Below are positions 15,281-21,317 of a stretch of 64,000 bases of DNA, in pieces (positions within the stretch are counted from its first letter, which is position 1; each line of letters starts with the position of its first letter). The DNA lies in NCBI RefSeq assembly GCF_013409345.1, contig NZ_JACCBB010000001.1:992001-1056000 (forward strand), written 5' to 3'. Under the pieces are notes generated by a model. It worked only from the letters and a program-made list of their open reading frames with translations, was not told where the DNA came from and made no database searches. A program made the translations under genes and the position numbers. The stretch is from Kineococcus aurantiacus (lineage in GTDB: Bacteria; Actinomycetota; Actinomycetes; Actinomycetales; Kineococcaceae).

Positions 15281-15778
15281 TCAGGCGGCGGTGGCGAGGA
15301 ACTCGTCCCAGCGCGGGTCGGGCTGCTCGGCGCCCCGGACCGCCCAGGAGGCCCCGCGGGGAGCGGCGGGCCGGAACGGCAGGTGCCAGCCCATCTCCTC
15401 GGGGGTGCGGTCGCCCTTGGCGTTGTTGCAGCGCACGCAGGCCGCCACGAGGTTTTCCCAGGTGTCCGGGCCGCGGCGGCTGCGCGGCAGGACGTGGTCG
15501 ATGGTCGTGGCGTGCCCGCGGCAGTAGGCGCACCGCTGGTGGTCCCGGCGCAGGACACCGCGCCGACTCACGGGCACGACCTGCCCGCGCGGGACCCGGA
15601 CGTAGCGCGTCAGGAGGATGACGGAGGGGCGTTCGAGGCTGACGGTGGCCCCGACGACGGGGTCCTCGGCGTCGGCCAGGACGACCGACGCCTTCCCCGC
15701 CAGCACCAGGACCAGTGCCCTCCGGAAGGACACGACCGCGAGGGGTTCGTAGCCGGCGTTCAGCACGAGCGTGCGCAC
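15281..15778 (-). CDS. HNH endonuclease family protein
   Basis: A 165-residue protein of a conserved actinobacterial HNH family. The N-terminus LVLNAGYEPLAVVSFRRALV is characteristic. The HNH zinc/catalytic module has two CxxC pairs, CAYC and CVRC, flanking TTIDHVLPRSRRG and a following NNAKGD. The GTG at 15778 is fixed by AGGAGG at 15784-15789 with 5-base spacing. The reading frame is overlapped at its 5' end by a histidine-rich upstream ORF, and a GC hairpin lies 9 bases before the AGGAGG. The substrate is unknown; such stand-alone HNH proteins need not be restriction enzymes. Confidence 0.88.
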   Translation of the reverse strand: MRTLVLNAGYEPLAVVSFRRALVLVLAGKASVVLADAEDPVVGATVSLERPSVILLTRYVRVPRGQVVPVSRRGVLRRDHQRCAYCRGHATTIDHVLPRSRRGPDTWENLVAACVRCNNAKGDRTPEEMGWHLPFRPAAPRGASWAVRGAEQPDPRWDEFLATAA

Positions 15779-15954
15779 ATCCACCTCCTGAGACGACGAG
15801 AGGCGCCTCCCCCGAGGGGGTAGGCGCCTCTGACAGCGACGACGGCCACATGGTGGTGGTGCACGCGGTGGTGCCCCACGACCTGGGCGGCGTACCGGAC
15901 GTGGGGTATCGCGGTCCCCCGTCGGGGGGTCCAGCCGGGGTGACTCGTGGTCAT
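15760..15954 (-). CDS. Histidine-rich 64-residue upstream ORF (possible leader peptide)
   Basis: A small ORF with ATG at 15954, GGAGGG just upstream (15958-15963), and its stop 18 bases inside the HNH gene. Residues 27-36 read GHHRVHHHHV, six His in eight codons. The frame then runs through the hairpin at 15799-15831. The last His codon ends 18 bases before the hairpin, about the distance of a ribosome's leading edge. Position, site and His run suggest a regulatory leader peptide for the HNH gene rather than a stable protein. No database check could be made, and it may be untranslated. Confidence 0.45.
   Translation of the reverse strand: MTTSHPGWTPRRGTAIPHVRYAAQVVGHHRVHHHHVAVVAVRGAYPLGGGASRRLRRWMCARSC
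15799..15831 (-). promoter_or_regulatory. Strong leader hairpin before the HNH gene
   Basis: Ten-base perfect arms AGAGGCGCCT (15799-15808) and AGGCGCCTCT (15822-15831) are extended by five C-G pairs (15809-15813 with 15816-15820) around a 2-base loop, with one bulge. On the minus strand it ends 9 bases before the HNH ribosome binding site. There is no U-tract, so control of translation or ribosome passage is more likely than termination. Confidence 0.6.
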
Positions 15955-16003
15955 CGGCCCTCCGCGGTCCTGGTCCGGTGCGGACCTGATCGTCCGTGGA
16001 GGG

Positions 16004-16033
16004 AGAGTACGTCGCCGGAGGTGGACGAGTCAG
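16004..16033 (-). promoter_or_regulatory. Candidate promoter of the upstream ORF/HNH transcript
   Basis: Minus strand: CTGACT (16028-16033), an 18-base spacer and TACTCT (16004-16009). The start is predicted near 15997, about 43 bases before the upstream ORF. Confidence 0.45.
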
Positions 16034-16100: not shown

Positions 16101-16141
16101 ACCGCCGGTCCCGGGGGCGTGGAGCCCCCGGGACCGGCGGT
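16101..16141 (-). terminator. Terminator of the NlpC/P60 gene
   Basis: A perfect 18-base-pair stem (16101-16118 with 16124-16141) and a 5-base loop, 23 bases after the stop codon of the NlpC/P60 gene. No U-tract. Confidence 0.75.
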
Positions 16142-16163: not shown

Positions 16164-17051
16164 TCAGACGGTCGGGGCGAGGCGGCCGAAGCTCACCGCG
16201 TCGGACCAGATGGCGCGCAGCTGCACGGGCTTGCCGGCGCGGGGGGAGTCCCACATCGAGTTCCCCCCGGCGTAGATGCCCACGTGGTAGGCCCGGCCAC
16301 CGCCGCTGGAGAAGAAGACCAGGTCGCCCGGCACGGCCTCGCCGCGCGAGATGGTGCGGGCCGCCCGCTTCTGGGCGTCCGCGGTGCGCGGGATCTCCAC
16401 GCCGAGCTGGCGGTAGACGTAGCTGGTGTAGCCGGAGCAGTCGAAGCCGGCGGGCGTGGTGCCGCCGTAGACGTAGGGCACGCCGGCGTAGTCGTCGGCC
16501 ACGTCGAGGATGCGCTGCCCCAGCGGGACCGGGGCGGGAGCCGGCGGGGGCGGCGGGGCCGGCGCGGGCGCCGGAGCCGGCTCGGCGACGACCGCCACGG
16601 CGGCGGCCGCGGGGACGGGCGCGGGCGGCGGCACGAGCGCGCTCTCGGCGACGCTGGAGGCCACAACGGGGGCGTCGTCGGTCGCGCGGGAGGAGCGCTG
16701 GAGCACGGGGGCCGCCAGGACGACGGGCGCCGCGGGGGCGCTCGCGAAGGTCACCGTGGTGGTCGGCGCGGCGACGGTCGCCGGGGCGGAGACGACCCCG
16801 GGGACGGTGGTGCCGAACGCGGCGGGCACCGTGGTGGCCACCGAGGCGAAGCTGGTGCCCACGGCGGCGGGCGCGGCCGCGGGGGCGGCACCGGCGGGGG
16901 CGGCGATCGACACGAGCAGGCCACCGGCCGCGAGCGCCACGGCGCCGGTGCGGGCGGCGCCGGCGGTGCGGGCGAGGCCGACCGACAGGTCGGTCAGGGG
17001 CGTGGTGGAGCGGACGGCGGCGCGGTGGCGCGCCTGGACGCGAGTCGTCAA
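16164..17051 (-). CDS. Secreted NlpC/P60 cell-wall peptidase
   Basis: A 295-residue exported hydrolase that should cut peptidoglycan stem peptides. A long basic N-terminus and hydrophobic stretch (about 25-55, ending near APAGAAPA) look like a signal peptide. A low-complexity Ala/Pro/Val linker spans about 55-175. The catalytic NlpC/P60 domain has Cys in AGFDCSGYTSYVY and His in AYHVGIYAGGN. The start is a TTG at 17051, 8 bases after GGAGAGG; no better start is in frame. A c-di-AMP riboswitch and a clear promoter precede it, and a strong hairpin follows. This matches the known c-di-AMP control of wall hydrolases in actinobacteria. Confidence 0.9.
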   Translation of the reverse strand: MTTRVQARHRAAVRSTTPLTDLSVGLARTAGAARTGAVALAAGGLLVSIAAPAGAAPAAAPAAVGTSFASVATTVPAAFGTTVPGVVSAPATVAAPTTTVTFASAPAAPVVLAAPVLQRSSRATDDAPVVASSVAESALVPPPAPVPAAAAVAVVAEPAPAPAPAPPPPPAPAPVPLGQRILDVADDYAGVPYVYGGTTPAGFDCSGYTSYVYRQLGVEIPRTADAQKRAARTISRGEAVPGDLVFFSSGGGRAYHVGIYAGGNSMWDSPRAGKPVQLRAIWSDAVSFGRLAPTV

Positions 17052-17066
17052 GGTGGTGGCCTCTCC

Positions 17067-17245
17067 GACGCCTGCGAGGTGAGCTGTCGGGTTCGGGCGG
17101 GAGCATCGCCCGGCCGGTTCGCACCGGCTTCACCCCAAGGGCTCGGCCCGACCCGCTGGTCGGACGTCGCCCGGGAAACGTGGTTCCCCCACCCCTGCCA
17201 CGAGCTGTCTCGGGGAACCTCGTCGCGGTGGCAGGGCTCGGCGTC
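17067..17245 (-). promoter_or_regulatory. c-di-AMP riboswitch (ydaO/yuaA type)
   Basis: The leader of the NlpC/P60 gene reads, on the minus strand, the conserved ydaO elements: GGGGTGAAGCCGG, then CCCGAACCCGACAGCT, then CACCTCGCAGGCGTCGG. The closing P1 helix pairs GACGCC (17240-17245) with GGCGTC (17067-17072). The GGAGAGG ribosome binding site starts at the 3' edge of P1, so ligand-stabilised P1 could affect translation as well as transcription. Known biology: c-di-AMP binding usually turns off rpf and NlpC/P60 wall-hydrolase genes. The family was recognised by eye; boundaries are approximate. Confidence 0.85.
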
Positions 17246-20972: not shown

Positions 20973-21317
20973 GCCCTGGAGGTTAAGCGGTTGCCCGGGG
21001 CGACGTCCCCCCAGGGCCCTGCGCCGGGACGCAGGAAGTCCCCGGGCGCTTCCCGCCCGGCGGTGCTGGCACCGTCGGGGCGGTCCGGTTGGACAGACCG
21101 GCGCCCGGGGACCCGGTGACTGCCGTGGATTCGCCGCGCTGCGCGGGGCGACCAGAGCGGTCCGCGTCCTGTCGCGCAGCTGCTAGCTGGCAGCCACCTC
21201 ACGCGTCCGATGGGAAACCATGTTTTCGGACCACCTCCTTCCCGTGTCCTCCGACGGTACGACGGGGTCCGCCGGTTGTCACCCCCGTTTTCCCGGCGAC
21301 CCCGGGGACCGCGCCGA

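Follow-up and report, generated by a model that had tools for sequence, protein, structure and literature searches.

Genes and features of the locus

The window, the whole stretch of 64,000 nucleotides of Kineococcus aurantiacus DNA that was analysed, carries on its minus strand an HNH endonuclease gene (15281..15778; GTG start at 15778; 165 codons, MRTLVLNAGYEPLAVV...), which was assigned by its match to PF01844 (E 1.6e-12) and is preceded by the ribosome binding site (RBS) AGGAGG (15784..15789, minus strand). Upstream of it lies a His-rich open reading frame (uORF; 15760..15954, minus strand) of 64 codons, which begins with ATG behind the RBS GGAGGG (15958..15963, minus strand) and is kept in 12 of 12 Kineococcaceae. 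Six of the eight codons at residues 28-35 (15850..15873, minus strand) encode His, in the order H H R V H H H H, and the final one is CAT, the sole CAT of the uORF; the rare codon ATA occurs in frame as codon 16 (15907..15909, minus strand). After the last His codon come 18 nt, then a terminator-like hairpin within the uORF (15799..15831, minus strand), which was recognized by folding, alignment and gene order, then a tail of 9 nt, CGTCGTCTC (15790..15798, minus strand), containing 3 T in 9, and then the AGGAGG of HNH. The stop codon of the uORF ends at 15760, 18 nt beyond the HNH start, and the two frames overlap by 19 nt. The 64-codon uORF with its RBS, the six-His run, the hairpin, the spacing to the HNH RBS and the stop inside HNH had all been described in the initial annotation and were confirmed by the sequence.

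The hairpin had been given as 10 plus 5 base pairs. The 10-pair stem was found as described (15831-15799), and the upper part consists of 4-5 pairs past a one-base bulge. The 45-nt hairpin stretch had a folding energy of -28.8 kcal/mol against -17.4 (sd 2.9) for its shuffles, with 1 of 500 equally stable, and the full 238-nt leader stood marginally above shuffles (z -1.72; 12/200). The terminator scan called no terminator in the Kineococcus hairpin region, and since the tail is also T-poor, the switch in this genome may act on translation instead.

The exact pattern of the His run (CAY CAY N6 CAY x4) occurred a single time in the 5.03 Mb of the own genome, and 6 His in eight residues were found in 1 of about 120,000 eight-residue stretches over the six frames of the window. 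CAY x4 alone is unremarkable, with 39 places vs 21 for the reversed control. A single look by eye at the own hisD region revealed no His-rich leader.

A -10-like element, TACTCT (16004..16009, minus strand), lies 5' of the uORF and was taken as part of an inferred promoter because of its GACGTAnnnT block. By eye, this promoter-like block was present about 33-50 nt 5' of the uORF start in all 12 Kineococcaceae; the sigma-70 promoter scan of the uORF upstream region called no promoter. A long hairpin, also observed by eye, is located between the uORF leader and an upstream NlpC/P60-type gene. Judged by sequence, the HNH leader would form its own transcription unit, since it has the promoter-like block and is separated from the NlpC/P60-type gene by the long hairpin.

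Conservation of the leader in Kineococcaceae

The HNH gene was found in all 12 Kineococcaceae genomes searched, and in every one the uORF kept its register, ran on to a shared TGA within HNH (stop at +18) and followed a Shine-Dalgarno sequence with 5 or 6 of 6 matches. The distances from the uORF start to HNH were 158, 161, 170, 176, 179, 182, 188 and 197 nt, all of them 2 mod 3. At least three adjacent His codons were present in 10 of the 12 leaders, with the run absent in L008 and L009. Each of the 12 uORFs contained exactly one CAT, which ended a His triplet or sat in GTGCAT, and none of the 1955 codons counted in the HNH genes of the family was CAT. ATA was likewise absent from these 1955 codons and appeared in 3 of the 12 uORFs. 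CAC was counted at 54 of 280 codons in frame vs 15 of 544 out of frame (kinship ignored), and His made up 21.5% of the uORF codons in the 8 non-redundant leaders. Because of the His runs in 10 of 12 and the single CAT in all 12, a codon which the HNH genes do not use, His is a genuine feature of the Kineococcaceae leaders, though L008 and L009 manage without a run. The initial annotation had looked to a conserved frame together with a conserved His run; the frame was kept, while the run was missing from these two leaders and not kept outside the family.

The last His codon was 12-18 nt 5' of the stem in the family, which fits the proposed geometry of a stalled ribosome at the hairpin base and a moving one melting the hairpin. 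The hairpin itself is near-invariant in Kineococcaceae, with 9 of 15 pairs never varying, 93.3% of cells paired and weak covariation. Compensatory stem changes, another mark suggested at the outset, were thus scarce here as the stem hardly varies, but were strong in the leader of Microbacteriaceae.

Leaders of the HNH gene in other families

The upstream regions of orthologues in many Microbacteriaceae, Kineosporiaceae and members of family f7 revealed a shared plan, consisting of a promoter-like block, a short leader frame, a hairpin with T-rich tail and HNH. The Kineococcus hairpin takes the same gene-order position as the terminators of the Microbacteriaceae, f7 and Kineosporia (L075) leaders. 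The U tract at the terminator is clear in Microbacteriaceae and most f7 leaders and poor in Kineococcus. The hairpins seen in four loci from the same order (L022, L025, L029 and L030) resemble the terminator of the upstream gene, and in 28 loci of other HNH branches no such leader was seen by eye (unscored).

Four covarying helices were revealed in Microbacteriaceae by alignment A3, which comprised 40 (and alignment A4 32) of the 79 leaders in the Microbacteriaceae-type group. One helix is inside the uORF, one is the terminator, one has the loop AAGCCGT and precedes the HNH RBS, and the last is a short outer helix. In A3, 93.3% of cells were paired vs 36-45% when the helices were slid, and 0 of 500 shuffles reached this value, the tested helices having been drawn from the same alignment that was scored; two-sided changes occurred in 19 of 27 pairs. 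A covariance model of uORF plus terminator matched 107 of 150 Microbacteriaceae genomes at E<=0.01, and the HNH gene was present in 128 of the 150 at E<=1e-40. When the best match per Microbacteriaceae genome was taken at E<=1e-3, 99 of 100 were directly upstream of HNH on the same strand, at a distance of 23-167 nt, and in the one exception, G438, a weaker second match lies directly before HNH. The Microbacteriaceae leader is HNH-specific. The same model gave weak matches or none with the Kineococcus leaders, so the kinship between the two groups of leaders rests on position, frame and hairpin. No Rfam family (Rfam 15) was found over the leader, in the window at gathering threshold or in 28 distinct loci at E up to 0.5.

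Several further features of these leaders were observed. The covarying hairpin with loop AAGCCGT in the A3 loci, the second one, is directly before the HNH RBS and adjoined by a short closing helix, and from its sequence and place it looks like a protein-binding or translation-control site. By eye, L013-L015 seem to have a similar pre-HNH hairpin with the loop AGCCA. In L016 and L017 (family f18) the His-containing leader frame, which was left uncounted, seems by eye to be leaderless, with GTG about 7 nt after the -10 box. In L020, also by eye, the HNH frame has an N-terminal extension, crosses the hairpin and shares an ATGA overlap with the leader ORF, a different coupling layout. A possible link through the motif ACCAU, found in the Kineococcus His run and in the loop of Microbacteriaceae hairpin A, was dropped since no conserved stem was seen by eye in Kineococcus.

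The leader frame and the hairpin

From 114 distinct upstream regions, 95 uORFs were kept as the first set. Among the 19 dropped, 7 had no candidate and 12 (L016, L017, L020, L021, L024, L025, L026, L027, L030, L059, L081 and L098) were weak, misplaced or leaderless. Picking for this set was done partly by hand and required 27 codons or more, a condition that favours open frames somewhat. The hairpin was scored in 82 of the 95; the 13 without hairpin included L008, and L009 was scored at the wrong hairpin. Given picks of at least 27 codons, none of the 82 scored leader ORFs ended more than 12 nt before the stem: 22 ended within 12 nt of it, 27 inside the hairpin, 31 read through and 2 had no stop in view. 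The other two frames ended early in 31 and 23 of the 82. There are Microbacteriaceae leaders in which the uORF ends at a terminator with a T tail, some 90-180 nt short of HNH.

The check in family f7 used 30 leaders, 28 of them new (L027 and L235, the earlier L165, had been seen before), with a start rule blind to codon content and frame end. Under a first, looser rule the stem was reached in 17 of 30, since in many loci the start selected by this rule lay 5' of the promoter; when the start was limited to 55-150 nt before the stem, a limit set after the first result, 29 of 30 frames reached the stem. The terminator was crossed by 24 of the 30 frames, which stop in a TGA overlapping the HNH start codon, and the stops of these 24 stay at the HNH start even though the distance from terminator to HNH varies widely.

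Codon content of the leader frames

Outside Kineococcaceae, AUA was the most strongly enriched among the codons examined. In the first set it was found at 57 of 2780 uORF codons (2.05%) vs 2 of 13604 (0.01%) in the HNH genes (kinship ignored), and the enrichment of His was moderate (CAC 5.29% vs 2.32%). For family f7, AUA enrichment was predicted in writing beforehand, and with the two previously seen leaders counted in, ATA occurred at 75 of 971 codons in frame vs 9 of 951 and 4 of 944 out of frame (13/1895 in total; kinship ignored). The 15 non-redundant f7 leaders gave 31/520 in frame vs 5/514 and 3/508, and the first start rule 68/1293 in the chosen frame vs 20/1278 and 10/1267. In the first 40 codons of the non-redundant leaders, AUA was present in 21 of 36 Microbacteriaceae, 13 of 15 f7, 1 of 4 Kineosporiaceae and 1 of 8 Kineococcaceae, leaving 15 of 36 Microbacteriaceae, 2 of 15 f7 and 3 of 4 Kineosporiaceae without it. 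In the 51 non-redundant Microbacteriaceae-type leaders, Ile at codon 18 was ATA in 16 of 16 cases, and Ile at codon 7 was ATC 32 times and ATT 5 times.

His and AUA counts were inversely related in 63 non-redundant uORFs, with a mean of 1.83 His where AUA was present and 4.26 where it was absent (p 0.0018, and 0.041 without Kineococcaceae; shared ancestry ignored). Wherever an AUA preceded the stem (72 leaders), the stem was separated from the nearest such codon by at least 10 nt in every case (median 21 in f7); further in-frame AUA at or after the stem were counted 7 times in the first set and 13 times in f7. The pooled set of 124 uORFs, from which the AUA/His relation, the AUA-stem distances and the antiterminator results were drawn, excludes the f7 leader L228, whose rule-chosen frame ends early. 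The last AUA or the last His is at roughly the distance from which a stalled ribosome would not yet cover the stem. No amino-acid constraint on the uORF emerged from two comparisons. The BLOSUM test per frame did not favour the uORF reading frame; frame 2 was top, mainly through codons 2-12 at hairpin A. Differences at the three codon positions were 579/748/797 (139 pairs), and 24/23/17 in Kineococcaceae (4 pairs).

Proposed regulation of the HNH gene

The element noticed in the initial annotation is real and conserved. Its best explanation, to which a little better than an even chance was given, is a translation-coupled attenuator before HNH, in which the ribosome occludes the hairpin as in pyrBI and pyrE and the slow codons are lineage-specific. 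The promoter just 5' would give a transcript with the short leader ORF as its first frame. This ORF would hold slow or regulatory codons, which are His (CAC/CAU) in Kineococcaceae and AUA in most f7 and many Microbacteriaceae, and would extend to the edge of, into or through the terminator-type hairpin. A ribosome delayed at the slow codons would leave the hairpin free, so that RNA polymerase terminates or HNH otherwise stays unexpressed; a ribosome keeping pace with the polymerase would cover the 5' arm, the hairpin could not form and HNH would be on. Fast leader translation or a slow polymerase would thus result in read-through and HNH expression. In Kineococcaceae and most f7, where the ORF ends at or just inside the HNH start, coupled translation probably contributes. 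Translation of the uORF, which is probable, as well as termination and the sign of control, are what we infer from the sequences, and they suggest that translation speed decides whether the HNH nuclease is made.

An antiterminator would be expected for a classical his or trp switch. Duplex energies compared with shuffles reached p<=0.05 in 2 of 54 leaders, and the truncated Microbacteriaceae alignments revealed no consensus helix with the terminator 5' arm, so a canonical antiterminator was rejected by the consensus folds and duplex energies. The classical switch is therefore unsupported, and the sign expected without an antiterminator is opposite to that of his attenuation, a shortage turning the gene off. 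The leader-peptide switch first proposed is supported in part, by the frame in register in all 12 Kineococcaceae and by the 82 scored frames, none of which stops more than 12 nt short of the stem, though not as a switch of the his-operon type.

Translational coupling only, where the uORF would be an antenna carrying ribosomes through the hairpin to the HNH start with no termination in Kineococcus, is possible, at roughly one chance in four in our judgement. It is a real rival or partner of the attenuator, because the U tract at the Kineococcus hairpin is poor and the HNH start is where 24 of the 30 f7 frames have their stop; the uORF stop at +18 in HNH in all 12 Kineococcaceae agrees with it too, and leader genes near structural genes have been proposed, in the part of the source consulted, to raise initiation through reinitiation (PMC4833913). 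It leaves unexplained the Microbacteriaceae uORFs which stop at a T-tailed terminator far before HNH, as well as the AUA and His codons just 5' of the stem.

A histidine-specific leader-peptide switch, which would sense charged tRNA-His and gate HNH, was considered unlikely. The share of His codons and their in-frame excess in the Kineococcaceae uORFs speak for it, and the inverse His and AUA counts look as though one codon substituted for the other; but the run is missing in 2 of 12 Kineococcaceae, AUA is dominant elsewhere, no antiterminator was found and the single look by eye at the own hisD gave no His-rich leader. Histidyl-tRNA, one of the two signals originally suggested, is not supported as what the wider family senses, with AUA leading and His moderate outside Kineococcaceae. 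The histidine-only reading is too narrow; the best view of the element is that of a family of attenuators, all occluded by ribosomes and all serving a single nuclease gene, in which the slow codons are interchangeable.

A more specific version of the ribosome-occluded attenuator, also considered unlikely, is a gate for decoding capacity. HNH would be off while AUA, or His in Kineococcaceae, is read slowly by scarce own tRNA, and on when ribosomes outpace RNA polymerase, either through a stalled polymerase (damage, nucleotide shortage, inhibitors) or through foreign DNA, for example of a phage, bringing a fast AUA-reading tRNA. If true, the leader would act as a tripwire that sets a core nuclease under the control of translation speed.

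Arrest by the nascent peptide, with RHSS in Microbacteriaceae or poly-His in Kineococcus (possibly metal-binding) stalling the ribosome, is improbable. In its favour, codons 19-22 were Arg 36, His 27, Ser 27 and Ser 20 times in the 51 non-redundant Microbacteriaceae-type leaders, and Ser used both codon classes; the leader peptides differ between families, however, and the Ile of codon 18, which is always ATA, indicates the codon rather than the residue. A chance origin, in which a frame merely happened to stay open across an ordinary hairpin because the DNA is rich in G+C, is very improbable indeed, for although long chance frames are common in the window and CAY x4 is not rare, the register survives indels, CAT recurs in 12 of 12, AUA is enriched in frame, the frames reach the stem and the helices covary.

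Comparison with known systems

Attenuators of the pyrE type have a leader frame which enters or crosses the terminator, and the hairpin is blocked by a ribosome that follows RNA polymerase closely. To our knowledge, such attenuators work without an antiterminator. The HNH leader is similar to pyrBI (pyrL) and pyrE in that its frame ends at or passes through the terminator (82 of 82 scored leaders; 29 of 30 in f7), and differs from them by its clusters of AUA or His and by a nuclease as the controlled gene. For pyrL, the part of the literature consulted describes inhibition of the terminator by the advancing ribosome (PMC5021804). In E. coli, according to the part consulted of another study, termination falls from about 90% to less than 10% when the stop codon precedes the terminator by 5 bp rather than 28, and uncoupling translation abolishes this effect of the stop codon (PMC4824070).

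In amino-acid leaders, according to the portion consulted of PMC1262725, the gene is preceded by a short ORF in which codons of one kind are clustered, and often by a terminator as well, and leaders with His are recorded in Firmicutes in the part of PMC9413887 consulted. Like the amino-acid attenuators (his, trp, ilv; in Actinobacteria trp, ilvB, leuA and cys), the HNH leader ORF has clustered codons, which are those of His in Kineococcaceae and AUA both in f7 and among Microbacteriaceae (21 of 36 non-redundant leaders). Unlike them, it has neither an antiterminator signal nor an amino-acid pathway gene, and the enriched codon varies by family.

The HNH leaders also resemble the reinitiation leader genes of Korolev et al. 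2016 (PMC4833913, as far as consulted), since an actinobacterial leader ORF lies beside its gene and the f7 and Kineococcaceae frames stop at or in the HNH start. That set, as described in the part consulted, is limited to non-overlapping leaders, and unlike it, most Microbacteriaceae stops are at the hairpin far before HNH. The controlled protein shares the HNH core with the IscB, Cas9, McrA and PtuB nucleases, the likeness being a match of the core alone, and unlike IscB it is a stand-alone protein of 165 residues which scored 48.6 bits vs a cut-off of 175.

The HNH gene and neighbouring elements

With a threshold of E<=1e-30, an orthologue of HNH was found in 234 of the 296 genomes that represent the class. 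The searches made turned up no function for this HNH protein, and no leader, attenuator or RNA motif of the gene appeared in the literature searched, as far as the sources were consulted (including PMC1262725, PMC2965389, PMC9413887, PMC13118837, PMC5021804, PMC9569102, PMC4824070 and PMC4833913); a conference paper from 2015 about actinobacterial leader peptides that contain His (ref. 18 of PMC4833913) may mention the locus. The leader would be a conserved control element of RNA plus uORF, matched by no Rfam 15 family in the loci searched, and in Microbacteriaceae it precedes one gene only, which is a nuclease and not a metabolic enzyme. The swap of AUA and His on the leader of one gene would be a natural experiment on what attenuators sense, and the leader offers a testable entry to an HNH protein found across Actinomycetes.

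Other elements were observed near the HNH genes. Of the 58 loci scanned, 20 have a tRNA-Arg(CCT) gene 3' of HNH and in the same orientation, and all 20 are of Microbacteriaceae type. In the window, the NlpC/P60-type gene (16164-17051) adjoins the HNH leader on its upstream side, and a c-di-AMP riboswitch (RF00379, 52.6 bits) was identified 5' of it at 17054-17225 (minus strand); RF00379 also matched in the flanks of L003 and L213, and in L013 and L075 with a score below gathering. Between the stop of the NlpC/P60-type gene and the HNH promoter block, the hairpin seen by eye is long, perfect and made of G+C (16102-16140, minus strand), and from its place it is probably the terminator of that gene. 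Further away, a match to the actinobacterial sRNA family Ms_IGR-5 (RF02471, 87.8 bits) was observed at 21029-21247 (minus strand).
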